Translations under genes and position numbers: made by a program
NCBI GenBank assembly: GCA_963565915.1
Contig: CAUXFO010000001.1
Coordinates: 1-64,000, forward strand
Direction of reading: 5' to 3'
Source of the DNA: Entoloma clypeatum
Taxonomy: Eukaryota; Basidiomycota; Agaricomycetes; Agaricales; Entolomataceae
Length of the DNA: 64,000 nucleotides
Notes under the pieces: generated by a model
Seen by the model: the letters and a program-made list of their open reading frames with translations, nothing else
The model's database searches: none
What the model was told of the DNA's origin: nothing
In this document: in pieces, positions 2,940 through 57,001 of the stretch
How positions within the stretch are numbered: the stretch's first letter is position 1
Layout: every line of letters begins with the position of its first letter

Positions 2940-4945
2940 CTTCCGAACTCGTCGTTCCCTGATCGGTCGATCTGGTACTTGCTCGGTTCCAGAGTGGGTA
3001 TTCGCGGTTCATCATCAGGCTCACTGGCAGGCAATTCGTTGTCTGATTCAGGTTGATCCTGTTCAATGGGAACTGGGTCATGAGGTGTTTCACTGTGACT
3101 ATCGTCGTCATTGCTGCCGGGAATGAGATCCTCAAACTCATCAGCCGGCTCTGGGTCTTCCATTTCTGGGTGGTTTTCTGGCAACGGGTCGATGTGGCAT
3201 CTAGGGTACTTGCTTTCATCAAAGATAGCTTTCCCGCCCATGAAAATCGTGTTGGTCTCAGGATCCATGAAGCGGTATCCTTTGACCCCTGGTTTCGATC
3301 TGAGATAAATCATCAATCGGGATCTTGATTCCAGGGAGTTCCTACGTTTCTCCTTTGGGATATATACATATGCCTGACATCCAAATACTCTGACGCTGGA
3401 CATGTCGGGGATCTCATTGGTCACCCTGAAGTAAGGGGTTTTCCATTCAAGACGCTGCATGGGGGTTCTGTTGTAGAGAAATGCTGCGTGTTCCAAACAG
3501 AATTCCCACCACATAGGTGGTAAGCATGCATCGAAGCGCAATGCCTGAGATTTTTCCCATAGTGTTCGATTGATCCTTTCTGCTCTACCATTCTGCTGGT
3601 GCTGATATGGGAGCGTGACATCGATCAGAATTCCATGATCGGCAAGTACATCCTTGTATTCGTCAAATTCTCCACCTCCATCAACCCGCCATTTTTTAGG
3701 GGTGGCGGCGAATTGATTCTGGATCATCGCAAGGAATTGTTTCAGCGCTGTGATGGCGCCTGACTTTTTCCTAAGCAAGACGACCCAGACATGGGAAGAA
3801 AAATCGTCCAAAAAGGTAAGGAAATATTTGTACTTATGGTATGATGCCGTGGATATTTGCTTCAAATCCGAATGGATTAAATCAAAGGGTTTAACAGCCC
3901 TTGTCATTGAGTTGGGATAAGATTGATTCGGCATTTTCCCTTTTAGGCACCCCATGCAGCTTTCCTGTGATTTCTCACGTACTAACGTTCTGGGTACTCC
4001 TTTGGTACTGGTGGGAATCTTATTGAGCGCCTGGTCATTTGGGTGGCCAAGGCGTTTATGCCAGGTTTCAACAGTGATTTCGCTAGAGATCACATGGATT
4101 TGGTCATAGCGTATTTCAGTGTCTAACCAATAAATGGTTTGTCCGAGAATGTGAGGCGAGAACTGTATTTTGTTCTGTCCTTTGGAGATGTTAATTTCTC
4201 CACGCATTCCGTCTACTTTGTAACCGTGATTAAGGAAGACGCCTAGGGACAATAGGCGTGTGTCCATGTCCGGAATGTAGAATACAGGTCGGAGAAGATG
4301 GGTTTTTATTTCCCCATTTAGGGTATGCCGTACTGGAACGGCCCCAACTCCGAGAATTTCCAGTTTCTTTCCCTTTGCAGCTGTTTGGACAAATCGCTTA
4401 GCCTTGAGAGGCCTGTAGTACGCGAAGTCTTTAAACTCATGGGTAAAGTGTAACGATGCACCGGAATCTAAGATCCACTGGGCGCGTTCTTTCTCTTTGC
4501 AGTGTGAGCAGGACGCAAAATGTTTGATATATTTTTTGTACAGATCATCACTAAAGAGATCTATACTATCTGCATTGGTACTAGCTAATATATGTTCAAA
4601 CGTCTGTGCGTGATTATTAGTGTTTCCCATTTGGTCAAGTTTGAGAGAAGGATGTGACGAACCGTCAAGTTCGATCAGCCCATCTTCGAATTGTTCCGGC
4701 CCCATCCGCTCGCTTTGATGGTCTATGTCCATCATCCTGAGCGAGTCATCCAAGGGTGGAGTGACTCGACGCTGCTTGGGTGGTCTTTCATCTTCTTCTG
4801 GGATAATTGTATCCAGAATTTGAAGGTTCGACCCTGAGGGACGAGCACCAATGTTCCGCGCGAGTTTGCGGATGTGATCGTTCTTTTTCCACACGGACGG
4901 TTTTCCAGAAGAAAGCCCGGTGTACTGTGACGGAGGCGGGTTCAT
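2885..4945 (-). CDS. Copia-1 protease-integrase segment
   Basis: A 686-residue open frame immediately downstream of the gag stop codon. In order I see a protease site WILDSGASLHF (the catalytic Asp-Ser-Gly is intact here), a zinc-binding integrase N-terminus with WHKRLGHP and a later C..C pair (SCMGCLKGK), and a DDE core with HSDLKQI, FLDDFSSHVW, DGGGEF and NGRAERINRT. These are standard Copia protease and integrase blocks. The frame ends TTG AAA AAT TAG while the RT frame continues in -1. It starts at the ATG directly after the gag stop, a start created by the nonsense change rather than a natural one. Confidence 0.9.
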   Translation of the reverse strand: MNPPPSQYTGLSSGKPSVWKKNDHIRKLARNIGARPSGSNLQILDTIIPEEDERPPKQRRVTPPLDDSLRMMDIDHQSERMGPEQFEDGLIELDGSSHPSLKLDQMGNTNNHAQTFEHILASTNADSIDLFSDDLYKKYIKHFASCSHCKEKERAQWILDSGASLHFTHEFKDFAYYRPLKAKRFVQTAAKGKKLEILGVGAVPVRHTLNGEIKTHLLRPVFYIPDMDTRLLSLGVFLNHGYKVDGMRGEINISKGQNKIQFSPHILGQTIYWLDTEIRYDQIHVISSEITVETWHKRLGHPNDQALNKIPTSTKGVPRTLVREKSQESCMGCLKGKMPNQSYPNSMTRAVKPFDLIHSDLKQISTASYHKYKYFLTFLDDFSSHVWVVLLRKKSGAITALKQFLAMIQNQFAATPKKWRVDGGGEFDEYKDVLADHGILIDVTLPYQHQQNGRAERINRTLWEKSQALRFDACLPPMWWEFCLEHAAFLYNRTPMQRLEWKTPYFRVTNEIPDMSSVRVFGCQAYVYIPKEKRRNSLESRSRLMIYLRSKPGVKGYRFMDPETNTIFMGGKAIFDESKYPRCHIDPLPENHPEMEDPEPADEFEDLIPGSNDDDSHSETPHDPVPIEQDQPESDNELPASEPDDEPRIPTLEPSKYQIDRSGNDEFGRCQEASMGKTLQRLILKN

Positions 4946-12140: not shown

Positions 12141-12831
12141 GCATCAAGGTTGAGGGAGGAATGGGAGGAACAGAGTGGTGGGTGAGAGCAAGATCAATTC
12201 CATAACCACAGAAACCTAAATGACAAACCTTAAACTCGGTGAAATCCGGCGGAGATTGAAATGACTTGGAACAAAAATCATCTTGTTGATGATTGCCCTG
12301 AAGGGAAGTTCAGCAAAAATCTCATGTTTCTGAATATGTATGGCACAAAATAGGTAGATCTGCATAATTCTGATACACAGGCAAAATTAGATACTCCACC
12401 GAAAAATATCACCCAGTACACAGAGATATGGAATGTGCTATCAAATGCTACCATAGCTACTGTGGTCTACAGAATGATGGTTGCAGGTATCGGGGCTGCA
12501 GGGCTCTGGCTGGGTGAGCTGTAGTCAAATACTTTTTCCTTATGAACTATGTTGTGGTATGAGTGGTATGGCAAGCTATGGAGCATGGCTGATGTATATC
12601 ATGGAGATATAACATCAGCCTTGGCATTGTAGCCCAAAGCTTTTTCCTGATGGGGTGGAGGGGGTCTCGGTCATGAAAAAAAATATTTTGACACCCCAAA
12701 TCAATGACATCATATGAGCTAAATAGGTAGTCTGATGCCCTTGTCGGGCAAGAAGAAGAGCAAATGAAGCCTTGAGGATCTCTCTTGGATCCTCAACAAT
12801 ATTTGACGGACAACTTGTAGGTGTCACGTAG
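12141..12831. other. No gene recognised
   Basis: About 690 bp without a recognisable coding frame or terminal repeat. The first part (GGTGGGTGAGAG) resembles sequence beside the minisatellite in the MITE at 43265-44405, so it may be decayed copy of that element. Confidence 0.4.
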
Positions 12832-13431
12832 TGTGTTTCTCAACGTCGGAAAATGTCGGATGAGTCGGAGCAGTCGGAGCGGAGTAGTGGAAGAGCGGAT
12901 GGGACAAGTCCGACGTCTTGCAGAAGGACCTGGCTTCAACTTATGTGTTGCGCCCCAGTCTTTGATGTGGTCCTAGATTTCAGATTGGCAGATGTCGGAG
13001 GGTGAGAGGAGCAGATGTGCGGAGCAGATGTGCGGAGGTGGAGATGTGAGAATGAGGATGAGGACGAAAGGCAAAGGAGTAGATTGGTGAGACATATGGC
13101 AACATATAGTGACATATAATATTCAAACTGAGGAACTACGACAGAATTCATACTACTTATAGTAAACCAGAAGTGGGTCAGTAACTACTATAGGTAAGGT
13201 GTGGATGTCGGAGTTACTCATCGGAGCAATCGGAGTACGGAGAGGAGCAAATGCAAAATCAACATCAAGATGTCTACTTGTCAGCATAATTAGAATGTTA
13301 ACTAGTAGAGATGTCAATAAGTACTATTATAAAAATCGTCGGATGTCGGACCGGATAAAACATTGGAGTCGTTGGATGTGTCAGATGTATGAATTGCATG
13401 GTTATGACAGTAGGCAGTATGTGTGAAACAT
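12832..13431 (-). repeat. Decayed solo LTR related to Gypsy E
   Basis: The stretch is rich in GTCGGA and matches the reverse complement of the Gypsy E LTR in several ordered blocks. A GGCTTCAACTT.TGTGTTGCGCCC-type block at about 12929-12953 matches the E segment near 50285-50315. ATATTCAAACTGA near 13121 matches the E transcription-start region, and many TCGGA words lie between. The ends (TGTG... and ...GTGAAACA) are approximate, and I could not fix a target duplication. No internal region accompanies it. Confidence 0.6.
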
Positions 13432-13590
13432 TGTAGTGTCTGACTCCTTTTCACTGTGTCTTGAGCTCAATGTCTAGGCAATGGCATGGATAATTCTGTG
13501 GGTACCCAGAGGCTGACCCTTACCCTTACCCTCATGGGAAATGACCCACCTATCCACGGGTTTTAAAAGCATGGGTATGGAGGGTTAAGC
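13432..13590. other. Short spacer, no gene
   Basis: 160 bp with no coding signal. It includes a CCCTTACCCTTACCCT run near 13517-13532 that looks superficially telomeric but is too short and of the wrong unit. Confidence 0.4.
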
Positions 13591-28966: not shown

Positions 28967-30649
28967 CTAGTTCTTTATCAGTCCGAAGTACGGGATAAAC
29001 TTGGAAAAGAGGATTTTCCCCAGATTCTTAGTCAAAAGGTCTGCAGGGTTATTCACTCCTTCGATGAATTCGACCGTAATAATTCCTTCGGAGACTTTTT
29101 CTCTGACGAAGTGGAATCGCACGTCAATGTGCTTGGATCGCTTCTCAGTCACAGGGTTGGATGCGATAAAGACGGAGCCGTTGTTATCTCCGTAGATCGG
29201 TACTGATCCGATCTGCATTCCAAGTTCGGCAAGCATGCTTCTCAGCCATGTTGCTGCGCGACTGCAATCTGATAGCGCCATATACTCTGCTTCTGTAGAA
29301 GAGAGGGCGATGGTCTTTTGCGCCGATGATACCCATGTTATCGCTCCAGACGCCAGTGATATGAAGAAGCCGGTGGTAGACCTCCTCGTGTTTTCATCTG
29401 ACGCCCAGTCGGAGTCTGTGAATGCATAGATCCCTTTCCCTGAGTCCCCATCGTACATGATCGCGTAATTTTTCGTTGCCTTCAAATATCTGCAAATGTC
29501 CCTAGCCACCTCTAAATGGCGTTTGGTGGGATTTGCGGAAAATTGGGACATTTTGATTACAGCAAAGCAGATGTCAGGCCTCGTTCCAATCATCAGATAT
29601 AGGAGTGATCCGATGACGGATTGGTACTTAGATCGGAGTTCCGCATTGGGTTCATCTTCGGACGCCATGGGTTTGTAGCCCGTAGGGAGTGGGGTATGGG
29701 TGGCATTAGATTCGCTCATCCCCATGCGTGCCAGAATTTTTTCAAGGTAAGGTACTTGATCAATGAAGATCCTCTTCCCACGTTGCCTTATTTGGATTGA
29801 AAGAAATTCCTTTGGTTCCCCATCAGGCACTAGGTGACCTAGGTCCCTACATTCCCATGTTGTCATGAAGGCCTTCTTCTTTTCTAGCGTATATTCCCGG
29901 TTTGTGCTGAGAAAAGCAGAGTCGTCGACATAGATGACGGCAATTACAATTTCCCCGTTGGTACTTTTGTGAATAAATACTCCCGCATCGGAGTGAAGCC
30001 GGACAAAGCCGAGCTTTTTCATGGAGGAATCAAGTTCCCTCCACCAGGCTAATGCGGCCTGCTTAAGTCCATATAGAGCTTTGAATAGTTGGTACACGAG
30101 GTGTTCTTTCCCTTTTACTATGTAGCCCTCAGGCTGTCGCATGTAAATGACTTCACGGAGCGTTCCATAGAGGAAGGCTGATGAGACGTCCAAAAGAGTC
30201 ATGAACCACCCTTCAAGGGCTGTCAATGCCAGTATTAATCGGACGGTTTCATATCTTACGACTGGTGAGAAGATCTGATCAAAGTCGATCCCTTCTACCT
30301 GTGAGAAGCCTTTTGCGACGAGGCGCGCTTTCAGACGCCCGTCGGACTTTTCATTGTAAACCCATTTGTTCCTTAGAGCTTTCCTCCCTGCAGGCAGGGG
30401 TACTAGCTCTGTGATCACCCCGCGGCGTTTGAGCATGTCTAGCTCTTTACGTTCAGCTGCATACCAGTCTTCTTTATTTGGAAGAGGATATATGTCTTTA
30501 TGGGACATTTCAACAATGCCAACTTGGACTGATATCGCCTCCATCAGGAGGTCATTCATCCATGCCGTTTGACTGCCCAATCTCCGTCTTCGATCTAATT
30601 TTTCAAGATCAGACGCTGGAGTGTCTTCCCCATAGATGCTTCCTGGCAT
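28967..30649 (-). CDS. Copia-2 reverse transcriptase-RNase H
   Basis: A 560-residue intact frame, with the same length and motifs as Copia-1: VAKGFSQ, DVSSAFLYG, VIYVDDSAFL, FTDSDWASDEN, SSTEAEYMAL, SKHIDVRFHF and NPADLLTK. It overlaps the upstream integrase frame in -1, ending the upstream frame with TTG AAA AAT TAG. The stretch from about 30360 to 31410 is virtually identical to Copia-1, whereas gag-proximal parts differ clearly. Confidence 0.92.
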   Translation of the reverse strand: MPGSIYGEDTPASDLEKLDRRRRLGSQTAWMNDLLMEAISVQVGIVEMSHKDIYPLPNKEDWYAAERKELDMLKRRGVITELVPLPAGRKALRNKWVYNEKSDGRLKARLVAKGFSQVEGIDFDQIFSPVVRYETVRLILALTALEGWFMTLLDVSSAFLYGTLREVIYMRQPEGYIVKGKEHLVYQLFKALYGLKQAALAWWRELDSSMKKLGFVRLHSDAGVFIHKSTNGEIVIAVIYVDDSAFLSTNREYTLEKKKAFMTTWECRDLGHLVPDGEPKEFLSIQIRQRGKRIFIDQVPYLEKILARMGMSESNATHTPLPTGYKPMASEDEPNAELRSKYQSVIGSLLYLMIGTRPDICFAVIKMSQFSANPTKRHLEVARDICRYLKATKNYAIMYDGDSGKGIYAFTDSDWASDENTRRSTTGFFISLASGAITWVSSAQKTIALSSTEAEYMALSDCSRAATWLRSMLAELGMQIGSVPIYGDNNGSVFIASNPVTEKRSKHIDVRFHFVREKVSEGIITVEFIEGVNNPADLLTKNLGKILFSKFIPYFGLIKN

Positions 30650-33600
30650 CTTCCGAACTCGTCGTTCCCTGATCGGTCGATCTGGTACTTGCTCGGTTCC
30701 GGAGTGGGTATTCGCGGTTCATCATCAGGCTCACTGGCAGGCAATTCGTTGTCTGATTCAGGTTGATCCTGTTCAATGGGAACTGGGTCATGAGGTGTTT
30801 CACTGTGACTATCGTCGTCATTGCTGCCGGGAATGAGATCCTCAAACTCATCAGCCGGCTCTGGGTCTTCCATTTCTGGGTGGTTTTCTGGCAACGGGTC
30901 GATGTGGCATCTAGGGTACTTGCTTTCATCAAAGATAGCTTTCCCGCCCATGAAAATCGTGTTGGTCTCAGGATCCATGAAGCGGTATCCTTTGACCCCT
31001 GGTTTCGATCTGAGATAAATCATCAATCGGGATCTTGATTCCAGGGAGTTCCTACGTTTCTCCTTTGGGATATATACATATGCCTGACATCCAAATACTC
31101 TGACGCTGGACATGTCGGGGATCTCATTGGTCACCCTGAAGTAAGGGGTTTTCCATTCAAGACGCTGCATGGGGGTTCTGTTGTAGAGAAATGCTGCGTG
31201 TTCCAAACAGAATTCCCACCACATAGGTGGTAAGCATGCATCAAAGCGCAATGCCTGAGATTTTTCCCATAGTGTTCGATTGATCCTTTCTGCTCTACCA
31301 TTCTGCTGGTGCTGATATGGGAGCGTGACATCGATCAGAATTCCATGATCGGCAAGTACATCCTTGTATTCGTCAAATTCTCCACCTCCATCAACCCGCC
31401 ACTTTTTAGGGGTAGCGGCAAATTGATTCTGGATCATCGCAAGGAATTGTTTCAGCGCCGTGATGGCGCCTGACTTCTTCCTAAGCAAGACGACCCAGAC
31501 ATGGGATGAAAAATCGTCCAAAAAGGTAAGGAAATATTTGTACTTATGGTACGATGCCGTGGATATCTGCTTCAAATCCGAATGGATCAAATCAAAGGGT
31601 TTGACAGCCCTTGTCATCGAGTTAGGATAAGATTGATTCGGCATTTTCCCTTTTAGACACCCCGTGCAGTTTTCCTGTGATTTTTCACGTACTAACGTTT
31701 TGGGTACTCCTTTGGTACTGGTGGGAATCTTATTGAGCGCTTGGTCATTTGGGTGGCCAAGGCGTTTATGCCAGGTTTCGACAGTGATTTCGCTAGAGAT
31801 CGCGTGGATTTGGTCATAGCGTATTTCAGTGTCTAACCAATAAATGGTTTGTCCGAGAATGTGAGGTGAGAACTGTATTTTGTTCTGTCCTTTGGAGATG
31901 TTGATTTCTCCACGCATTCCGTCTACTTTGTAACCGTGATTAAGGAAGACGCCTAGGGACAATAGGCGCGTGTCCATGTCCGGAATGTAGAATACAGGTC
32001 GGAGAAGGTGGGTTTTTACTTCCCCATTTAGGGTATGCCGTACTGGAACGGCCCCAACTCCGAGAATTTCCAGTTTCTTTCCCTTTTCAGCTGTTTGGAC
32101 AAATCGCTTAGCCTTAAGAGGCCTGTAGTACGTGAAGTCCTTGAACTCATGGGTAAAGTGTAACGAGGCACTGGAGTCTAAGATCCACTGTGCACGTTCT
32201 TTCTCCTTACAGTGTGTACATGACGCAAAGTGCTTTGTATATTTTTTATATAGATCGTTGTCAATGTGATCCATACATTCTGCACTAGTACTAGCTAATA
32301 TTTTACACGTCTGCAAGGAGGTGTTATTAGCTTTCCTTAATTGGTCAGATTCAGGAGAGGAAGATGACGAACCGTCAAGTTCAATGAGCCCATCTTCGAA
32401 TTGGTCCGGCCCCATCCGCTCGCTTTGATGGTCTATGTCCATCATCCTCAGGGTTTGGTCCAGCGGCGGAGTAACTCGACGCTGCTTGGACGGTCTTTCG
32501 TCTTCTTCTGGGATAATCGTATCCAGAATGCGAAGGTTTGACCCTGAGGGGCGGGCACCAATGCCACGCGCGAGTTTGCGAACATGGTCATTTTTCTTCC
32601 ACACAGACGGCTTGCCCGAAGGAAGCCCGGTGTACTGGGATGGAGGCGGGTTCATTCGCTGAAGGAGCGACTGCATCCGCTGAGAGTCTGGCTGGGCGGT
32701 ACTTATCGTTTTTCCGCGCCCGGTGACGGTAGTGAAGGATGGTGGAGGGAAGTGTATGGCGGGAGCAACAAACTCAACCGTTTCCTCCACATGGTCGGAC
32801 ATGTTGTCCGCAGTGTTGGCGCTTTTCTTCTGATTGCGCCAGCGTCCTTTTCCCTTCTTCTTTTCAGAAGCGGTACTATGGTCGGTCGAGTTAGGCTGCT
32901 CGTCAGCGTCGTTCTGTGAGGTACTCGGCTTTTGCTGCTTTTCCCATTTGGGGTCCTGCCCCTTTCGCTTTGTCCCAGAAATTTTCTTGGCCTGCTCATT
33001 GGACGTACGAGTAGACCCGACCGAATACTTGCGCCTGTATTCCGAGATGACGCTGTCGGCGACGGCCTGCCATGTGAAGTCATCGGCGTCGTATACCTGG
33101 AAGAGAGCGGTGGAGAGTGATGACCAGGCGTCGGGAATCGCATTGGCCAAGATCATTGCCTGCATCAGATCGGGGACGACAAAATTTGAATCGGCGAGAC
33201 GGGCGAAGAGAGAGCCCAGGCGTTCGATTTCAGGGACGGGGTCGCGTCCAGACAGTTTGTAGGTGGCGGCGGCTTTAAAGTCGCCGAAGATGACCGCCGG
33301 GGATATCTTGGAGTAGGCGTCTTTCAACGTTTTCCATGCGCCAAGCGCTGAGGTACTGTCTTTGATGTGACGTCTGATCGCCTCAGAGATTTTCAGGCGT
33401 ATCGCCCCGAGAGCTACGTCGTCGTCCCTGATCCAGGCTTTTTCTTCCTTGCGGAAGCCGGGCTGGTCGACCGTGGTAGTCAGCACAGGGGGAGCAGCGG
33501 TGGTGGGACCAGGAGTGGAGACCGTAGTGGTGAAGTCGGCGATCTCGGGACGGGGGATATCGCCAGAGACGATGCGCCAGACTCCTTGATGAAGGAGGTA

Positions 33601-33684
33601 GGACTTCATTTTTTCGGCCCAGCTTTGGTAGTCAATGCCGTCAAAGGGGGCGATGGTGTCAAGAGCAGAGCGAGAGGTAGACAT
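30595..33684 (-). CDS. Copia-2 gag-protease-integrase polyprotein
   Basis: A single open frame of 1029 residues. Order: UBN2-type gag N-terminus (FDGIDYQSWAEKMKSYL, residues 14-30), basic low-complexity region (about 230-300), and a protease site near residue 500 that reads WILDSSASLHF. The catalytic Gly of DSG is changed to Ser, one G-to-A at a CpG relative to Copia-1. Integrase follows with WHKRLGHP, C..C, HSDLKQI, FLDDFSSHVW, DGGGEF and NGRAERINRT. The reading frame is therefore complete, but maturation is probably blocked. The start is the ATG at 33684, matching Copia-1. Confidence 0.92.
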   Translation of the reverse strand: MSTSRSALDTIAPFDGIDYQSWAEKMKSYLLHQGVWRIVSGDIPRPEIADFTTTVSTPGPTTAAPPVLTTTVDQPGFRKEEKAWIRDDDVALGAIRLKISEAIRRHIKDSTSALGAWKTLKDAYSKISPAVIFGDFKAAATYKLSGRDPVPEIERLGSLFARLADSNFVVPDLMQAMILANAIPDAWSSLSTALFQVYDADDFTWQAVADSVISEYRRKYSVGSTRTSNEQAKKISGTKRKGQDPKWEKQQKPSTSQNDADEQPNSTDHSTASEKKKGKGRWRNQKKSANTADNMSDHVEETVEFVAPAIHFPPPSFTTVTGRGKTISTAQPDSQRMQSLLQRMNPPPSQYTGLPSGKPSVWKKNDHVRKLARGIGARPSGSNLRILDTIIPEEDERPSKQRRVTPPLDQTLRMMDIDHQSERMGPDQFEDGLIELDGSSSSSPESDQLRKANNTSLQTCKILASTSAECMDHIDNDLYKKYTKHFASCTHCKEKERAQWILDSSASLHFTHEFKDFTYYRPLKAKRFVQTAEKGKKLEILGVGAVPVRHTLNGEVKTHLLRPVFYIPDMDTRLLSLGVFLNHGYKVDGMRGEINISKGQNKIQFSPHILGQTIYWLDTEIRYDQIHAISSEITVETWHKRLGHPNDQALNKIPTSTKGVPKTLVREKSQENCTGCLKGKMPNQSYPNSMTRAVKPFDLIHSDLKQISTASYHKYKYFLTFLDDFSSHVWVVLLRKKSGAITALKQFLAMIQNQFAATPKKWRVDGGGEFDEYKDVLADHGILIDVTLPYQHQQNGRAERINRTLWEKSQALRFDACLPPMWWEFCLEHAAFLYNRTPMQRLEWKTPYFRVTNEIPDMSSVRVFGCQAYVYIPKEKRRNSLESRSRLMIYLRSKPGVKGYRFMDPETNTIFMGGKAIFDESKYPRCHIDPLPENHPEMEDPEPADEFEDLIPGSNDDDSHSETPHDPVPIEQDQPESDNELPASEPDDEPRIPTPEPSKYQIDRSGNDEFGRCQEASMGKTLQRLILKN

Positions 33685-34047
33685 TGTAGATGAATCTAAA
33701 AAGGGTTCCCAATCAGTGATATGTTATGAATATGATTTGAGAAAACAATTGAATGATTCCTTATGACTTATTCCCTTCAGGAATAGCGGTCATGGGAAAA
33801 CCCTTTATATGTCAGAATCGTATAAGGTGCGATCAACGTTTCCACATGGAGTGTACTAGGTCAATCCCCTTTTAGGGACGTCTCATGACAGGTACTTGTT
33901 GTAATGACGTTCCCAGGTTCATATGTGAAGAAGTATGACTCAGAACCTAGATCTTTCGATCGGTTCTTTGCCAACCAGGGTAGAGTGGGCAGGTACTCGC
34001 TGTTGCCAGCGTTTCCCAGGTCCCTCTGCTATCCGGGGCCCATAACC
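33685..34047 (-). promoter_or_regulatory. Copia-2 5' leader and primer-binding site
   Basis: A 363-bp leader, nearly the same as in Copia-1. GGTTATGGGCCC sits against the LTR on the minus strand (plus-strand 34036-34047), complementary to the anticodon loop region of initiator tRNA-Met. Confidence 0.75.
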
Positions 34048-49925: not shown

Positions 49926-50409
49926 TGTTACATTCCGATCCATTCCGACGATTTCCGACCAATCCCGACACCTCCGACACCTCCGACATTTTGACTAATA
50001 CTTATTATGCATACTTACTGTTATGAATCTCGTTACTACGTACATTACTTACATCCGACCATTTTACTTATGTTAAGAATCTCCGACAGCCACTCGTTAT
50101 CCGACTCCGACGAAGCCACACGTCCTCCGACATAGTATTTAAACTTATGTAGAATCGTGTATTAGCTTCAGTTTGAATATCAACTTAGATTCGACATCAT
50201 ACCTCCCGTCCTCTTTCCGACTCTTAACTTGAGTCCGACCTCCGACCTCCGATCCTCCGATCCTCCGAAATAAGGACACCAACGTATTAGCGAGGGCGCA
50301 ACACACAAGTTGAAGCCAAGTCCTTGCCCCTACGTTGCACGCGCTCCGACCTTCCGACCTTCCAACGCGTCCGACGTAGCTCCGACGTTTTGTCGATCAG
50401 TTCTTAACA
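49926..50409 (+). repeat. Gypsy E 5' LTR
   Basis: A 484-bp LTR starting TGTTACATTCCGATCC and ending CAGTTCTTAACA. I count 21 CCGA words on the plus strand and no TCGG. TATTTAAA at 50136-50143 is the likely TATA box. Confidence 0.95.
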
Positions 50410-50423
50410 GTATATTCAAACTG
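50136..50423 (+). promoter_or_regulatory. Gypsy E TATA, transcript start/self-primer and PBS
   Basis: About 33 bp after TATTTAAA (50136) lies CAGTTTGAATAT (50169-50180). Three bases after the LTR lies ATATTCAAACTG (50412-50423), its perfect 12-nt reverse complement. This again fits self-priming as in Tf1/sushi elements. No tRNA complement is apparent. The decayed LTR at 12832-13431 keeps the same word. Confidence 0.82.
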
Positions 50424-50455
50424 CCACTCGCTTATCCGTATTTCAAATTCCAGTT

Positions 50456-51682
50456 ATGGCAGCCCGCAACACACAGAACTCCCGCGCAGCAGCAGCCGCA
50501 GCGGAAGCTTCAAACCTGCAGGACACCAGGGCGACATTTCTACATACGTTCCAAGATATTCCCGCAGAAGAATCTGCACCCAAACCTGACCCCATATCTC
50601 CGACACCTCATCTCCGAACACCTCAGACACAAGGACCTCCGATTCCTGAAGAATTCCGTCCTTTTAAATCACTGACCTCTCCTTTTGACGATAACAATCC
50701 TTTCCGTCGCGAGCAAACTCCAAACCTCGCCGAAGCAATTATGCTTATGACGCAGGAGCTCCGACGTAGAGAGACTCCGAAAACTCCGAAAAAGAAATCG
50801 AAGGAACCCGACACTTTTGACGGTTCCGACTCTCGGAAACTCACCAGTTTCCTTGCACAATGCACGCTATATTTCCGAAACAACCCCGCTTTTGACGACG
50901 ATGATAACAAAGTCAGTTTCGCTCTGTCGTACCTCCGAGGAACCGCGCTCGAATGGTTTGAGCCCACCCTCTTGGGAGAGTCCGACGACGACTCTGTCTG
51001 GTTGGACGACTGGTCCGCCTTTGTGCACATCCTCCGATCCGAATTCGGACCTATCGATCCGACCGGAGAAGCAGAGGATAGCCTGGATCACCTTCGGATG
51101 CGCGACAATCAGAAGATCCTACGTTACAACGTGGACTTCAAACGTCTTTCCGCTCGCACGCAGTGGGATGATGGCGCGCTCCGATATCGGTACTATACCG
51201 GTTTAGCGGAACGCATCAAGGACGTTTTGGGGACTTTTCCCAAACCAAAAACTCTCGCCGAGTTGAAAGTAATGGCCCATAACATTGATGCTCGCTACTG
51301 GGAACGTCAACGCGAGAAATCGCGCTCCTCCGACAAATCTACTCCGAAATCCGACAAATCCGACAAATCCGACAAAAAACAGACCCCCGCTTCATCATCC
51401 TCCAACAACAACTCCTCATCGTCTAAACCCAACTCGCAACAACAACAAAAATCGTCATCCACCTCTCCGAAATCCGCCCTCTCCGACAAACTTGGCAAAG
51501 ATGGGAAATTAACTCCCCAAGAACGCCAACGACGATTTGACAATAATTTATGCATGTTTTGCGGCAACGTTGGTCATCGGGCTTCCGACTGCTCGAAGAA
51601 ATCGTCTTCTAACGCCAAAGCAAAAGCCCGCGCGGCCCAAGCTGAGGACAAATCGGAGAAGACGACCGAGTCAAAAAAATAG
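50456..51682 (+). CDS. Gypsy E gag
   Basis: 408 residues, starting at the first ATG after the leader (MAARNTQNS). A Pro/Thr-rich N-terminus is followed by the gag core (about residues 115-280, with YLRGTALEWFEP, WSAFVHILRSEFGP and YYTGLAERIKD). Next come a Ser/Asp/Lys-rich stretch with repeated Ser-Asp-Lys and poly-Ser/Gln (about 283-350) and one CCHC knuckle CMFCGNVGHRASDC (about 363-376), with a Lys/Ala-rich tail. It forms the virus-like particle and binds RNA. It ends AAA AAA TAG, where the -1 shift into pol can occur. Confidence 0.95.
   Translation: MAARNTQNSRAAAAAAEASNLQDTRATFLHTFQDIPAEESAPKPDPISPTPHLRTPQTQGPPIPEEFRPFKSLTSPFDDNNPFRREQTPNLAEAIMLMTQELRRRETPKTPKKKSKEPDTFDGSDSRKLTSFLAQCTLYFRNNPAFDDDDNKVSFALSYLRGTALEWFEPTLLGESDDDSVWLDDWSAFVHILRSEFGPIDPTGEAEDSLDHLRMRDNQKILRYNVDFKRLSARTQWDDGALRYRYYTGLAERIKDVLGTFPKPKTLAELKVMAHNIDARYWERQREKSRSSDKSTPKSDKSDKSDKKQTPASSSSNNNSSSSKPNSQQQQKSSSTSPKSALSDKLGKDGKLTPQERQRRFDNNLCMFCGNVGHRASDCSKKSSSNAKAKARAAQAEDKSEKTTESKK
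51673..51682 (+). promoter_or_regulatory. -1 frameshift slippery site at gag stop
   Basis: A AAA AAA (51673-51679) lies immediately before the gag TAG (51680-51682). Zero-frame codons are TCA AAA AAA TAG; slipping back one base gives ATA GTA AGC AGT, the pol frame, which is open from here to 55383. The heptamer fits the X XXY YYZ rule for programmed -1 frameshifting. I did not identify a definite downstream pseudoknot. Confidence 0.82.
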
Positions 51683-54600
51683 TAAGCAGTCCTCAGATTC
51701 CAGCACGTACTGGGGATTGCGTTGACTCCTTTCGTGCACCTTTGGAAACCCTCCGACTCAATGCGTCCGCTCTCTCAAATCCGAACTCTCTATGTATTGA
51801 TTTGATATCTCCGACCTTTTCCGATTCTCTTCCGATAAAGACTCTTATTGATTCTGGTTCTACACATTGCTTCGCAGATACCAGATTTATTTCTTCTTTA
51901 AACTTATCTCCGACTCCGATTCCTTCACCTATGGTTTTGAAACTTTTTGACGGTTCTTCAAATACGTATATCACACAATCTATCGATCTTCCTCTCCGAT
52001 TTCCTTCCGGTGAACTTCTGACCGTCGCATTTTACGTGACAACCCTCGATTCGTCTTGTAATTTGGTTCTAGGACACAACTGGCTCACCCGCTACAATCC
52101 GTTGATTGACTGGGTATTGGGCAGTATCTTATTCCGTTCTACGTTACCCGACACTCCGAGTCCGACTCCGACATTGACTGCTGAGGCAGCTCCGCCACCT
52201 CTGCAGTGTCCGCCCTCTCCGATGGGCACCTCCGATCCGCTCACTCCGAACACCTCCGACCCGCCACAGATTACCATGGTCAATGCAGCCGCATATCTCC
52301 ATGCATGTAAAGCTCCTGGGGCATACGCTTTCCGCGTTCACCTCTCCGACATCTCCGCCAATTCCGCGTCTGTCTCCGACGACGCTCCCGACCTCTCTGG
52401 CATACCCGAGGAATACCACGATTTTGCTGATGTATTCAGTAAGAAAAAAGCCGACACCCTTGCACCCCACCGACCGTACGACCTCAAAATCAATTTGGAG
52501 GAAGGTACTTCCCCTCCGATTGGTCCGATGTACTCACTCTCGCAATCCGAACTTGGATCCCTCCGAGACTTCATCGATGAGCACCTCAATATCGGTTTCA
52601 TCAAACCTTCTAGTTCACCTCACGGCGCTCCGATCCTCTTCGTCCGAAAGAAAGATGGATCACTCCGACTATGCGTCGACTACCGAGGCCTGAACAAAAT
52701 CACGAAGAAGGACCGATACCCACTTCCGCTCATCTCCGACCTCTTAGCCACTGCCGGAAAAGCACGCGTTTATACCACCATAGACCTCCGACACGCATAC
52801 CACCTAGTCCGCATCGCTGAAGGTGATGAATGGAAAACTGCATTCCGCACTCGCTATGGATCATTTGAATGGTTAGTCATGCCATTCGGATTGTCTAACG
52901 CACCTGCAGCCTTTCAACGTTTTATGAACGACATCTTCTCCGACCTTCTGGACAACTGCGTTACCGTTTACCTCGACGACATCCTGATCTACTCCGACAA
53001 CCCCGAGGAACACAAAAAACATGTCCAAGAAGTCCTCCGACGACTCCGACAACATGGTCTTTACGCCCGCGCCGACAAGTGCGATTTCTCTGCCGAAACT
53101 GTGGAATACCTTGGATTTATCCTTTCTCCCGACGGACTCAAAATGTCGGAAGCGAAAGTCAAGATTATTCAGGATTGGCCTGAACCGCGCAGAGTGAAGG
53201 ACGTCCAGTCCTTTTTAGGTTTTGCAAACTTTTACCGACGTTTCATTCCATTCTATTCCAACATCACTATTCCACTCACTCGTTTAACCAGGAAACATGC
53301 CACTTGGCTGTTCTCCGACGACGCTCGAACCGCTTTTAATGACCTGAAAAAGGCATTTACCACCGCTCCGATCCTGACACACTGGATCCCCGACTCTCCG
53401 ATAATTGTCGAAACCGACGCATCCGACTATGCCCTAGCGGCTATTCTGTCGATAGTCACCTCCGACAATGAAGTCCACCCCGTCGCATTCCATTCCCGCA
53501 CCTTCACGGCCCCCGAAGTAAACTATGACACCCACGATAAGGAACTTCTTGCCATCTACGAAGCGTTTAAAATTTGGCGCCATTACCTCGAAGGCTCCGG
53601 TACTCCGATTGACGTCGTTACCGACCACAAAAATCTCGAGTATTTTGCCACCACCAAAGTTCTTTCACGCCGACAAGTCCGATGGTCGGAATACCTTTCT
53701 CAGTTCAACCTCGTCATCCGATTCCGCCCCGGCCAATTGGGAACTAAACCTGACTCTCTAACTAGACGTTGGGATGTCTATCCTAAAGGGGGAAATAGCG
53801 ACTACGTCGACATCAATCCGACCAACCTCCGACCAGTCTTTTCGCAAGAACAGCTCTCCGCTTCAGTTCGCGCGACTCAACTCCTTGAGCCCGTCCTCCG
53901 TGCAACCATTATCATGGACACAGAAAAGCTTCACCACGACATACTCACAGCACTCCCTTCCGACACTCTTTACGACACTCTTTCTAAAAATCCTAAACCC
54001 CGCTGGTCTCTCGACCCCGATGGTTTCCTCCGACATGACGATCGGATATACGTTCCCGACTCCGACGACCTCCGACTCCGAGTCCTACAGCACAAGCACG
54101 ATCATATGCTTGCTGGACACCCAGGTCAGAACAAGACACTCAGTCTCATTCAGCGTGATTATACCTGGCCCGGAATACGAGATTTCGTTAAACACTATTG
54201 CAAGTCATGTACCACTTGCATGCGATCGAAGCCACAAAGACACAAGCCTTACGGCCTACTCAAACAGCTTCCGATCCCCGAACGTCCTTGGAATTCTATC
54301 TCAATGGATTTCATCGAGACCCTTCCGACCTCCGACAACTTTGATTCAATCCTCGTTATCGTTGACCGATTAACGAAACAAAGTATTTTCATTCCGACAA
54401 CAATTCACTGCACCTCCGAAGACCTTGCCGTACTCTTCGTATTGCATGTCTTCTCTAAACACGGCGTCCCCGAACATATCACCTCCGACCGCGGCCCCGA
54501 ATTCGTCTCCCGATTCTTCCGATCTCTCGGAAAGGCTCTAAACATGACCCTCCACTTCACCTCCGGTTACCACCCCGAAGGCGATGGCCAAACCGAACGC

Positions 54601-55383
54601 ACTAACCAGACCCTCGAACAGTACTTGCGGATATTCTGCAACTACCAACAGGACAACTGGTCCGCTCTCCTTCCGATTGCGGAGTTCGCGTACAACAACG
54701 CACCTAGTGCTACCACTGGCATATCTCCCTTCTTTGCTAACAAGGGTTACCATCCGAACATTACTGTTCACCCGGAACGAGACCTCGCCTCTTCCCGAGC
54801 CCGATCCTTCGTGACCGACTTAGATGAACTTCACCAAGAACTGAAAGCCACCATCTCCGACGCTCAACGACGTTACCAGAAGTCCTCCGACAATAATCGG
54901 ATCGCACCTCCGACATTTTCTGTCGGACAACAGGTTTTCGTCAAAGCACAGTTCTTCCGCACAACACGCCCATCCAAGAAACTCTCAGAAAAATACTTGG
55001 GACCATACGAGATCATTGCACAACCCGGCACACACTCCTTTACCCTCCGACTCCCCGACACATTCTGCGGTGTTCACCCCGTCTACCACGTCTCCATGCT
55101 TGAACCCGCAACTCCGAACACCATTCCGAATCGGACCCAACCTCCGCCTCCTCCGATTGACATTGACGGAGAACTTGAGTACGAGATCGCTGAAATAGTC
55201 GACTCAAAGATCGACCGACGACGTAGCTGCAAGCTACTATATTTCGTCCGTTGGTTAGGATATGAAAACACTGATGAAGAATTCTCTTGGCTACCAGCCA
55301 ATGAATTGGAAAACGCCCCCGAGCTTGTCTCCGACTTTCACTCCGCTTATCCCGACAAACCGGGTCCGCTCACATCGCTCTGA
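51679..55383 (+). CDS. Gypsy E pol (protease, RT, RNase H, integrase, chromodomain)
   Basis: An intact frame of about 1234 codons entered by the -1 shift; numbering below is from 51742, a TTG. Protease TLIDSGSTHCF (about 35-45) and LVLGHNWL. RT with VRKKDGSLRLCVDYRGLNK, MPFGLSNAPAAFQRFMN and the catalytic YLDDILIYSD (about 410). RNase H ETDASDYALAAILS (about 555). Integrase zinc region AGHPGQNKT to CKSCTTC (about 787-825), MDFIETLP (about 855), SDRGPEF (about 916) and GYHPEGDGQTERTNQ (about 943). C-terminal chromodomain YFVRWLGYEN...FSWLPANEL (about 1142-1195), which in chromoviruses targets integration to methylated histones. All catalytic residues I can check are present. Confidence 0.96.
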   Translation: MVSSPQIPARTGDCVDSFRAPLETLRLNASALSNPNSLCIDLISPTFSDSLPIKTLIDSGSTHCFADTRFISSLNLSPTPIPSPMVLKLFDGSSNTYITQSIDLPLRFPSGELLTVAFYVTTLDSSCNLVLGHNWLTRYNPLIDWVLGSILFRSTLPDTPSPTPTLTAEAAPPPLQCPPSPMGTSDPLTPNTSDPPQITMVNAAAYLHACKAPGAYAFRVHLSDISANSASVSDDAPDLSGIPEEYHDFADVFSKKKADTLAPHRPYDLKINLEEGTSPPIGPMYSLSQSELGSLRDFIDEHLNIGFIKPSSSPHGAPILFVRKKDGSLRLCVDYRGLNKITKKDRYPLPLISDLLATAGKARVYTTIDLRHAYHLVRIAEGDEWKTAFRTRYGSFEWLVMPFGLSNAPAAFQRFMNDIFSDLLDNCVTVYLDDILIYSDNPEEHKKHVQEVLRRLRQHGLYARADKCDFSAETVEYLGFILSPDGLKMSEAKVKIIQDWPEPRRVKDVQSFLGFANFYRRFIPFYSNITIPLTRLTRKHATWLFSDDARTAFNDLKKAFTTAPILTHWIPDSPIIVETDASDYALAAILSIVTSDNEVHPVAFHSRTFTAPEVNYDTHDKELLAIYEAFKIWRHYLEGSGTPIDVVTDHKNLEYFATTKVLSRRQVRWSEYLSQFNLVIRFRPGQLGTKPDSLTRRWDVYPKGGNSDYVDINPTNLRPVFSQEQLSASVRATQLLEPVLRATIIMDTEKLHHDILTALPSDTLYDTLSKNPKPRWSLDPDGFLRHDDRIYVPDSDDLRLRVLQHKHDHMLAGHPGQNKTLSLIQRDYTWPGIRDFVKHYCKSCTTCMRSKPQRHKPYGLLKQLPIPERPWNSISMDFIETLPTSDNFDSILVIVDRLTKQSIFIPTTIHCTSEDLAVLFVLHVFSKHGVPEHITSDRGPEFVSRFFRSLGKALNMTLHFTSGYHPEGDGQTERTNQTLEQYLRIFCNYQQDNWSALLPIAEFAYNNAPSATTGISPFFANKGYHPNITVHPERDLASSRARSFVTDLDELHQELKATISDAQRRYQKSSDNNRIAPPTFSVGQQVFVKAQFFRTTRPSKKLSEKYLGPYEIIAQPGTHSFTLRLPDTFCGVHPVYHVSMLEPATPNTIPNRTQPPPPPIDIDGELEYEIAEIVDSKIDRRRSCKLLYFVRWLGYENTDEEFSWLPANELENAPELVSDFHSAYPDKPGPLTSL

Positions 55384-55411
55384 AACAAGAAAAAACAAGT
55401 ACTATTACTAT

Positions 55412-56351
55412 CTACTTAGTACGTTGTTTCTTGTTGGACGGACCCTCCTCCTTGTCCGACTCCCCCTCTGACTCCGCCTTCTCCGACTCGTCCGATATGT
55501 CCATGTCGGACTGCTCCGGCATATCCAACCTCTTCCGATTCAACATGTCTTGCTTGATCTTCTTCACCAGCCTCTGCTCCAGGCTCAACTCCTCTATCTC
55601 CTCATTCACCTCCGACTTCCCCGATCCCTCCGACTCCGACTCCGATTCCTCCACTTCCTCTGGCACGTATGCAATGTTGACAGTTCCTTCAACTGCTGAG
55701 AGCAGTCTTCGGATCTGCCTCGTCTCCACCAAAATCTCCTTCAAGACGCTCAACAGCGTCACCTCCGACTCCGACCCTCCGACCTCTGTCGCTTTCCCTT
55801 TTCCCTTCACCTTCACCGTGCGCTTCACCTCCGACTTCCCCTCCGACGCTCCGACCTCGCACTTCTTCTTGTCTTTGATACATCCTTTGCAGGACGACTT
55901 ATTCCTAAAAACACAAGGTTAAAACAGAAGAGACGAACCAAAGAGGGACTTACTCATCGCGTTCGCATTCGACGCCCTTCACAATGCACCTATCACAGGT
56001 GCCGACCCCGACCCCGACTCCCGACCCCTCTCCGACCATCGCCGACACTTCCTCCACCTTCCTCTTCTTCGTCGTCTTCTTCTTCTTCTCCGCCTGCGGC
56101 TCCCCCGACCCCTTGCTCAATGCGCCTTGTGCAGCGGCCACTTCATCGGCCCTTTTCTGAGCCGCCAGCTCCGACGCCCAACGCATCTCCTCCGCTACCC
56201 GCATCTCCTCCGCAGCCCTCTCTTCCTCCGCTCTCCGCTCCTCCTCAGCCTTCCTCGCAGCCTCCTCCTCCGCTGCTCGCTTTTTCGCCTCCACCTCCGC
56301 GAGCTTAGCCTGCAGCGCCTCCATCTCCTTTTGAAAATCGGATGCCGACAT
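55412..56351 (-). CDS. Antisense spliced gene in Gypsy E with Zn2Cys6 motif (296 aa)
   Basis: Two exons on the minus strand, 56351-55954 and 55904-55412, join across a 49-nt intron to give about 296 residues. Exon 1 starts MSASDFQKEMEALQAKL and forms a long Ala/Glu/Arg/Lys coiled coil (about 5-75), then a Lys-rich nuclear-signal-like KKKKTTKKRK. The splice creates CX2CX6CX8CX2CX6C: the first three Cys in exon 1 (CDRCIVKGVEC), the last three in exon 2 (CKGCIKDKKKC). That is the fungal Gal4-type binuclear zinc cluster signature. A Ser/Glu-rich acidic C-terminus follows, ending in KKQRTK. It converges on pol with a 28-bp gap. From memory, antisense ORFs of this general type occur in other agaricomycete Gypsy elements. 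The DNA-binding role is inferred. Confidence 0.85.
55905..55953 (-). other. Intron of the antisense gene (49 nt)
   Basis: On the minus strand the donor is GTAAGT (55953-55948) and the acceptor TTTTTAG (ending 55905). The length is typical of basidiomycete introns. Unspliced, exon 1 stops at once (GAG TAA). Spliced, the frame continues Asp-Glu-Asn-Lys and completes the six-cysteine motif. Confidence 0.85.
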
Positions 56352-56517
56352 ATTGAGGTTTATTTTCGGAAGAGTTTAAAACGAAAAGAGAATGGGGGAA
56401 CAAGAAGAAAAAACCACTCAGACGGTATTTTCAACCAACGCATCACATGACACAGTTCACGCGCACCGACCACCTAGGTCCTTAGGCCTCATGGGTTCGG
56501 CCCTAAGGGGGAAATAC
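56352..56517 (-). promoter_or_regulatory. Putative antisense promoter/leader and sense polypurine tract
   Basis: 166 bp between the antisense ATG and the 3' LTR. The antisense promoter could lie here or in the LTR. On the plus strand GGGGGAAATAC (56507-56517) abuts the LTR and is the likely polypurine tract of Gypsy E. Confidence 0.5.
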
Positions 56518-57001
56518 TGTTACATTCCGATCCATTCCGACGATTTCCGACCAATCCCGACACCTCCGACACCTCCGACATTTTGACTAATACTTATTAT
56601 GCATACTTACTGTTATGAATCTCGTTACTACGTACATTACTTACATCCGACCATTTTACTTATGTTAAGAATCTCCGACAGCCACTCGTTATCCGACTCC
56701 GACGAAGCCACACGTCCTCCGACATAGTATTTAAACTTATGTAGAATCGTGTATTAGCTTCAGTTTGAATATCAACTTAGATTCGACATCATACCTCCCG
56801 TCCTCTTTCCGACTCTTAACTTGAGTCCGACCTCCGACCTCCGATCCTCCGATCCTCCGAAATAAGGACACCAACGTATTAGCGAGGGCGCAACACACAA
56901 GTTGAAGCCAAGTCCTTGCCCCTACGTTGCACGCGCTCCGACCTTCCGACCTTCCAACGCGTCCGACGTAGCTCCGACGTTTTGTCGATCAGTTCTTAAC
57001 A
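56518..57001 (+). repeat. Gypsy E 3' LTR
   Basis: A 484-bp LTR. I compared it with 49926-50409 by eye and found no difference. CTGTC follows at 57002-57006. Confidence 0.95.

Follow-up and report, generated by a model that had tools for sequence, protein, structure and literature searches.

The window, the whole 64,000-nt stretch of Entoloma clypeatum DNA that we analysed, contains a Ty3/Gypsy element whose forward strand encodes gag and pol and whose opposite strand encodes a two-exon gene (Table 1). The sequence CTGTC lies both ahead of position 49926 and after the end of the 3' LTR at 57001, and thus constitutes the TSD. A Pfam scan of pol placed RVT_1, RT_RNaseH, Integrase_H2C2 and Chromo over their cut-offs and rve barely under its own (32.4 of 32.6), and the CCHC knuckle of Gag scored slightly under its Pfam cut-off. 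With gag, the RT-RNase H-integrase order, a chromodomain, LTRs and a short TSD all present, the element is a Ty3/Gypsy chromovirus. The earlier note had placed an antisense gene between pol and the 3' LTR of an intact Gypsy element, and the element does look intact. The open frames of gag and pol share 37 nt (51646-51682), read in different frames, which suggests programmed frameshifting. The 166-nt gap between the antisense ATG and the 3' LTR holds a PPT-like AAGGGGGAAA on the plus strand and contains neither TCCGAC nor GTCGGA (0 of each). Read by eye, the element sits inside the integrase-like minus-strand reading of another element, with QTDGQ before it and QTERINQELEQYLR after it.

The antisense gene lies on the minus strand, its 3' end facing that of pol, and runs from the ATG at 56351 to a stop at 55412; its spliced product is 296 aa long. 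Spliced, the reading gives CDRCIVKGVECERDENKSSCKGCIKDKKKC; unspliced, it meets a stop directly after exon 1. Exon 1 encodes a charged stretch rich in E, A, K and R, followed by a basic stretch and then by the first cysteine half. On re-reading, the coordinates of the earlier note, its 49-nt GT-AG intron and its cysteine spacing of CX2CX6CX8CX2CX6C all proved exact. The net charge of the protein is -7 over residues 1-75, +6 over residues 76-100 and -9 over residues 266-290; the last residues are basic (KKQRTK). The earlier note had seen a regulator-like layout in an N-terminal coiled coil, a basic stretch and an acidic C-terminus. A Pfam scan of the whole protein returned only Acyl-CoA_dh_2, at E 0.54.

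Table 1. Features of the element in the window and, in the last row, the antisense gene of a sister family.
Feature	Positions	Strand	Description
Ty3/Gypsy element	49926-57001	+	7,076 bp; chromodomain; identical 484-bp LTRs; TSD CTGTC
5' LTR	49926-50409	+	484 bp, identical to 3' LTR; TCCGAC 16, GTCGGA 0
gag	50456-51682	+	408 aa; DUF4939, Ty3_capsid and Retrotrans_gag over Pfam cut-off
pol open frame	51646-55383	+	First ATG 51931 (1150 aa); RT, RNase H, integrase H2C2, chromodomain
Antisense gene, exon 2	55412-55904	-	493 nt including stop; second cluster half CKGCIKDKKKC, C-terminal region
Recombinant C-terminal coding segment	55466-55821	-	Block identity 88-99% to L052 lineage (lowest value over 40 aligned nt), 65-82% to L015
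Antisense gene, intron	55905-55953	-	49 nt, phase 2, GTAAGT...TTTTAG, inside the cysteine cluster
Antisense gene, exon 1	55954-56351	-	398 nt, ATG at 56351; first cluster half CDRCIVKGVEC
Gap, antisense ATG to 3' LTR	56352-56517	-	166 nt; possible promoter/5' UTR
3' LTR	56518-57001	+	484 bp; TCCGAC 16, GTCGGA 0
Word TCCGAC	49926-57001	+	89 sense, 4 antisense; CTCCGAC 59:0
Family B antisense gene (copy L054)	Exon 1 1301-976, exon 2 923-386	antisense	287 aa; 52-nt phase-2 intron; in the pol-3' LTR gap

Conservation, selection and mosaic history of the antisense gene

Searches of the same 60-Mb genome returned at least 43 matches at the DNA level (40 of 185 candidates scored) and at least 163 with the exon-1 protein (150 of 195 candidates scored). 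From 20 long and 20 short stretches, three loci of the DNA search and the window, with five duplicates set aside, we assembled 44 sequences; 40 of these (the window and 39 other copies) were aligned, and four were set aside as cut or truncated. Since the sample was picked by exon-1 similarity and favours good copies, the fractions that follow are not genome-wide rates. Within it, the antisense protein reaches at least 285 aa in 35 of the 40 aligned copies, and the exact cysteine spacing is found in 37, the exceptions being L024, which is full-length but one residue short in the spacing of its last two cysteines, and the broken L038 and L045. All 40 donors begin with GT (GTAAGT in 28, GTGAGT in 10, GTAAGC and GTATGT in one each), and the acceptor TAG stands at the aligned position in 39; L047 has TTTTAG six bases earlier, which we take for an alignment slip. 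Among the 35 long copies, introns measure 48-57 nt and differ by one or two bases, while the length of exon 1 changes only in steps of three nucleotides and the frame downstream stays intact. An intron that shifts in length by single bases next to an exon that keeps its frame is the pattern that splicing predicts. In the main subfamily (L009 and L014-L025), the T-run ahead of the acceptor expands, and introns are 49-57 nt long. A search with an L047-type exon 1 as query gave 171 matches, of which its own source and one other exceeded 90% identity. Both the conservation of the cysteines among relatives and the presence of the same antisense gene in related elements, which the earlier note had named as checks, are thus borne out in these similarity-chosen copies, the second also by one copy of a sister family, B, described below.

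Selection was assessed as dN/dS (Nei-Gojobori) in 17 pairs. For L015, a member of the main subfamily, the ratio is 0.13 against L034, 0.14 against L043, 0.17 against L030, 0.19 against L046, 0.24 against L036 and 0.26 against L039, all of them older copies, and 0.32 and 0.35 against the nearer L029 and L027; between older copies it is 0.16 for both L043-L030 and L034-L043. The window itself gives 0.28 against L010 (two plus two changes), 0.19 against L006 and 0.43 against L028. Its ratios against L034 (0.29), L043 (0.32), L025 (0.47) and L015 (0.48) all include an exchanged C-terminal segment, which taken alone yields 0.36-0.39. A dN/dS near 1, which the earlier note had named as refuting the gene, is not what we find between subfamilies, where the ratio is well below 1 (0.13-0.26). 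Against the gene, in exon 1 of the young pair formed by the window and L015, with two synonymous and six non-synonymous changes, it is 0.87. Between the same two copies gag has 0.10 and pol 0.20; against the old copies L051 and L050, pol of the window has 0.25 each (4 and 7 stops skipped), and gag has 0.36 against L051 (2 stops skipped). Over longer times, then, the antisense gene is constrained like gag-pol, and between young copies no such constraint is visible.

For six pairs we also computed dN/dS in every alternative frame, and in four of these five it was 1.1-2.9. The remaining one, the mirrored wobble frame of the opposite strand, gave 0.23-0.27 in five pairs and 0.50 in one, always above the gene frame, as is expected where wobble positions coincide with those of the gene frame. 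We therefore reject selection on an overlapping sense frame, the best sense-strand frame lying above the gene frame in each of the six pairs. We conclude that the predicted spliced antisense gene of this element is real, conserved and under selection.

The gene has a mosaic history. Compared with the main subfamily, the window is 94.5-97.7% identical in the LTRs, 98.9-99.4% in gag and 98.6-99.5% in pol, and 84-85% identical in the antisense gene. On both sides of the segment 55466-55821 the pattern is the reverse of that within it, the window being closer to L015 than to the older L052, and this flip in identity indicates an exchange of the C-terminal region with that older lineage. The dS of the antisense gene between L015 and L030 is 0.17, and between L015 and L043 it is 0.28; the dS of pol between the window and L051 (the L030 locus) is 0.083, and between the window and L050 (the L043 locus) 0.098. 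Antisense alleles thus look older than the pol that accompanies them. In 16 older copies (among L029-L046) compared with L015, G>A and C>T make up 987 of 1,697 differences and 38% of the CpGs of L015 are lost, a decay that would fit CpG methylation of silenced copies.

A sister family, homologue searches and the cysteine cluster

Family B was reached via a related pol piece and has many copies (150 of 1,890 candidates scored). Its antisense gene was read in one copy, L054, in a 2.5-kb stretch whose pol end is 74% identical to the window element over 299 nt. The encoded cluster, CQACAEAKVEC-x10-CQRCKDGKRVC, has the spacing CX2CX6CX10CX2CX6C, with the intron between the third and fourth cysteines as in the window gene, and the protein has a charged N-terminus, an acidic stretch and the end EGPPAKKAKTQ (EGPSNKKQRTK in the window). 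At least 150 places in the same genome match exon 2 of family B (150 of 173 candidates scored). BLASTP finds no alignment between the antisense proteins of B and of the window's family, A, and in a profile comparison the cluster alone aligns, with 2.3% probability. Because the two genes share place, strand, intron and layout we infer common descent, unproven as this is by sequence. A further family, C, has a pol frame of 1231 aa.

A search of 5.8 billion proteins, with 7,989 candidates scored, gave no homologue of the antisense protein at E<=0.001, a 183-aa part of it has none at E<=1 among 209 candidates, and solved structures contain no match at E<=1; on these grounds the capture of a host gene was rejected. 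A control search of the same protein collection with pol returned relatives of up to 78-79% identity among the 120 listed of 7,918, those with organism names coming from Leucocoprinus, Trametes, Pisolithus and Lentinula. The collection therefore holds related elements; if these have antisense genes, the proteins have either diverged too far or been missed by gene calling that ignores introns. Annotations of mushroom genomes list many short coiled-coil proteins with cysteine clusters, and these may be such antisense genes. Neither of the two pattern matches in viral contigs was a relative, and of 11 in genome contigs one was: L053 (VBAU01000528.1), with 44% identity in pol and, by eye, no paired cysteine cluster among its ORFs of at least 70 aa. 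This contig, assigned to a Bacteroidetes MAG, carries a Gypsy pol and is probably eukaryotic contamination of the MAG.

Zn2Cys6 clusters follow the pattern CX2CX6CX5-12CX2CX6-8C, and the clusters of the window (X8) and of family B (X10) both have this spacing. On the Zn_clus profile PF00172, the window cluster alone scores 13.1 bits against a gathering cut-off of 21 bits, the whole protein gives no match at E<=1, and the family B cluster reaches 8.9 bits, also under the cut-off; a made-up Gal4-like control scores 33.7 bits. The earlier note's assignment to the Gal4 type therefore stands as to spacing and fails as to the Pfam profile. The antisense cluster resembles Gal4-type clusters in its CX2CX6CXnCX2CX6C spacing and in its basic residues, but differs from them in that its lysine-rich half comes second, whereas in Gal4-type clusters it comes first; in agreement with this, profile positions 19-35 align to the first cluster half of the protein. 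Artificially swapping the halves raises the score to 23.9 bits, over the cut-off, and the L047 variant reaches 18 bits unswapped. The cluster may thus fold like a Zn2Cys6 cluster with its halves exchanged, a lead that comes from a single swap test in one family.

An element-wide word and its possible reading by the antisense protein

The commonest hexamer of the LTR is TCCGAC/GTCGGA, and the 16 copies of TCCGAC in each LTR compare with a Markov-1 mean of 0.68 (maximum 4 in 500 simulations). In the rest of the window (56,924 nt) the word is at chance level, with 9 sense and 21 antisense occurrences. Counted per kb, it is found 10-18 times in each of the seven bins between 50 and 57 kb, 4 times in the 49-50 kb bin and 0-2 times elsewhere, apart from counts of 6 and 3 at 12-14 kb, the site of an LTR-like fragment from another family. 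Likewise, at 24 loci it occurs 12.3 times per kb in family DNA versus 0.83 times per kb in the flanks.

Coding sequence is also enriched. Measured against synonymous-codon shuffles, gag and pol together contain CTCCGA 52 times versus 9.9 (z 15.7) and TCCGAC 41 times versus 10.6 (z 11.6); in seven sets of control ORFs from the window, no hexamer exceeded a z of 7.6. Gag accounts for 11 TCCGAC versus a shuffle mean of 2.6 and pol, from its ATG, for 30 versus 8.2, while the antisense gene, where the word reads GTCGGA, has 13 versus 7.7, only 1.7-fold; these counts were reached in 0 of 1000 shuffles where shuffled. The word stands in all three frames of gag and pol, against synonymous expectation, and its orientation there is about what the codons impose, antisense words numbering 3 versus 0.56 in pol and 0 versus 0.49 in gag. 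Seventeen other long frames of the window have at most two TCCGAC each. Three long-ORF sets at 1257-4945 and 28967-33723 (minus strand), copia-like by eye, have AGTACC as their top hexamer over synonymous shuffles (11 versus 1.8, 8 versus 1.7 and 6 versus 1.0), perhaps another element-specific word.

Genome-wide, we counted 971 triple CTCCGAC arrays (30-nt gaps) versus 9 for the reversed control. The places listed, a first part of the total, comprise several sequence types, those of the A and B LTRs among them. The word is not confined to the A family. The LTRs of the older copies L049-L052 contain 8, 13, 11 and 7 TCCGAC and no GTCGGA, and the first 900 nt of family B from the LTR start contain TCCGA at 17:0. 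The LTR-like fragment of a further family at about 12845-13345 (minus orientation) has 8 GTCGGA and 1 TCCGAC in 12701-13450, and its similarity to the LTRs of A and B is limited to short cores (for A, 32 nt at 94%). In the 16 older copies, CpG loss affects 33.5% of cells within the word and 39.6% away from it (p 0.07, uncorrected for shared ancestry), which gives no clear sign that the antisense protein shields the word from decay. The word, which the earlier note had not reported, is the best indirect hint that the antisense protein may act on its own element.

In the available text of two reports, the antisense accessory genes that plant LTR elements carry are said to be of unknown function; some of their proteins are predicted to bind DNA or were found in the nucleus, and that text reports no similar proteins outside elements (PMC11963269, PMC7264820). 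The gene described here resembles the Retand-type antisense ORFs in lying between pol and the 3' LTR and in being kept in recent copies (PMC11963269, PMC7264820). It differs from the plant genes in its fungal chromodomain element, in the spliceosomal intron inside the six-cysteine cluster and in the element-wide word, the Retand-type ORFs belonging to a non-chromovirus Gypsy lineage; in the main text of PMC7264820 the words 'intron', 'zinc' and 'fungi' have 0 occurrences. Tcn1-like and other fungal chromoviruses share the gag-pol with chromodomain, and the available text of 'LTR Retrotransposons in Fungi' mentions no antisense gene, 'antisense' and 'zinc' occurring 0 times in its main text (PMC3248453). 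A literature search, conducted mostly without full text and with subscription papers outside it, found no report of a fungal LTR element with an antisense zinc-cluster gene.

VANDAL elements are DNA transposons and the element studied here is an LTR retrotransposon, so the parallel that we draw with their VANC proteins is an analogy only. As far as the available text goes, VANC proteins of Arabidopsis VANDAL elements bind a 9-base motif, of which their own elements hold dense arrays with a single orientation, and cause methylation loss (PMC5735166). The likeness lies in a short motif at high density, in the same orientation and in tandem units within the element that encodes the protein (PMC5735166). 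Indeed, TCCGAC is dense and co-oriented, and rare in the rest of the window and in the flanks of the 24 loci. By contrast, the VANC21 motif is described mainly from non-coding parts (PMC5735166), whereas TCCGAC is found in coding parts too and in several families; other Gypsy families also carry TCCGAC-type arrays.

Our preferred reading, a tentative one that we put a little short of an even chance, is that a self-encoded antisense regulator recognises the CGG-core word and targets the element that encodes it, perhaps to activate it or to counter its silencing in the manner of VANC. A transcript from near the 3' LTR would run antisense towards pol and lose the 49-nt intron; both transcript and protein are postulated because the frame and the splice sites are conserved. 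The 296-aa product, with a helix-like charged N-terminus, a basic stretch, the six-cysteine cluster and an acidic stretch near its end, would be nuclear. Because the gene is antisense, its intron would stay in the sense RNA that is reverse transcribed and would survive transposition, as established retrotransposon biology has it. The protein would bind CTCCGAC/GTCGGAG, packed in the LTRs and spread over gag, pol and the antisense gene, a step proposed from the coincidence of the two, and one source copy could act in trans on the whole family. At the level of chromatin, the protein would keep copies accessible or demethylated, and active, in the way that VANC serves VANDAL elements. We favour such a chromatin role over simple repression at the promoter, since the word extends over coding regions as well as the promoter, and anti-silencing is favoured because within-lineage selection rewards spread and because the decay of older copies would fit CpG methylation. 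The fullest form of this reading, a closed two-part selfish system in which a permuted zinc-cluster protein and its own target word CTCCGAC, present element-wide, would let kin be recognised in chromatin and unsilenced, we regard as rather doubtful.

It is unlikely that gene and word are unrelated, the gene encoding a nuclear accessory factor and CTCCGAC being a sense-RNA signal (for example for packaging by the Gag CCHC knuckle) or a host-factor site. An RNA signal would accord with the dominance of the sense orientation (89:4, and 16:0 in the LTR) and with the CCHC knuckle, slightly under its Pfam cut-off as it is, and much of the element would be in genomic RNA. However, enrichment in pol is similar on both strands (3.7-fold sense and 5.4-fold antisense, the latter from 3 sites only), which points to double-stranded DNA, and CGG-core words are the usual targets of zinc-cluster proteins. 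The 16:0 orientation of the LTR could come from RNA-level recognition or equally from tandem duplication.

Still less probable is antisense repression or copy-number control, in which the product would bind the LTR arrays and lower sense transcription at high copy number. HBZ lowers sense transcription in HTLV-1. It is antisense and spliced, as is the gene described here, whose splicing is predicted from sequence alone, and it differs in being a leucine-zipper factor where we find a cysteine cluster. The available text on HBZ and other retroviral antisense genes places them, as regulatory genes, at the 3' end of an LTR element (PMC11963269, PMC7264820), the position of the gene here, and antisense retroviral regulators are established (PMC11963269). 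A repressor would also account for the word array in both LTRs, but a plain promoter repressor leaves the packing of the word in gag and pol beyond codon need unexplained, and young near-identical copies are so numerous that control, if any, must be loose.

We think it quite improbable that the word was spread without function by a mutational process such as tandem slippage or template switching in reverse transcription. The LTR arrays do change by tandem units (L049, L015), and in the available text VANC targets also grow in this way (PMC5735166). Against such a process, the word stands in all three frames of gag and pol, and the A, B and 12.8-13.4 kb LTRs all carry it although they align only over short cores. 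Moreover, the word includes a CpG, a dinucleotide that is rapidly lost from old copies, so that either upkeep or recent renewal must lie behind its density in young ones. Finally, that the antisense frame is a chance ORF, a by-product of a low-complexity purine-rich stretch, is scarcely credible: exon 1 is of low complexity and the protein searches above (E<=0.001, 7,989 scored; E<=1 for the 183-aa part, 209 candidates) found no homologue, but the frame-specific dN/dS, the conserved splice sites and cysteines and the frame kept across an intron of variable length contradict it, and family B has the same gene plan.

The conservation of the intron shows that splicing is selected for, and the candidate target word is defined by sequence alone, so that the question of what antisense retrotransposon proteins do can be put to a straightforward binding experiment. 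Were the word indeed the target, this would be a mobile element that marks its own chromatin identity by a short code that includes synonymous sites of its genes. Should the closed two-part system prove true, it would be the counterpart, in an LTR element of fungi, of VANC anti-silencing in plant DNA transposons.
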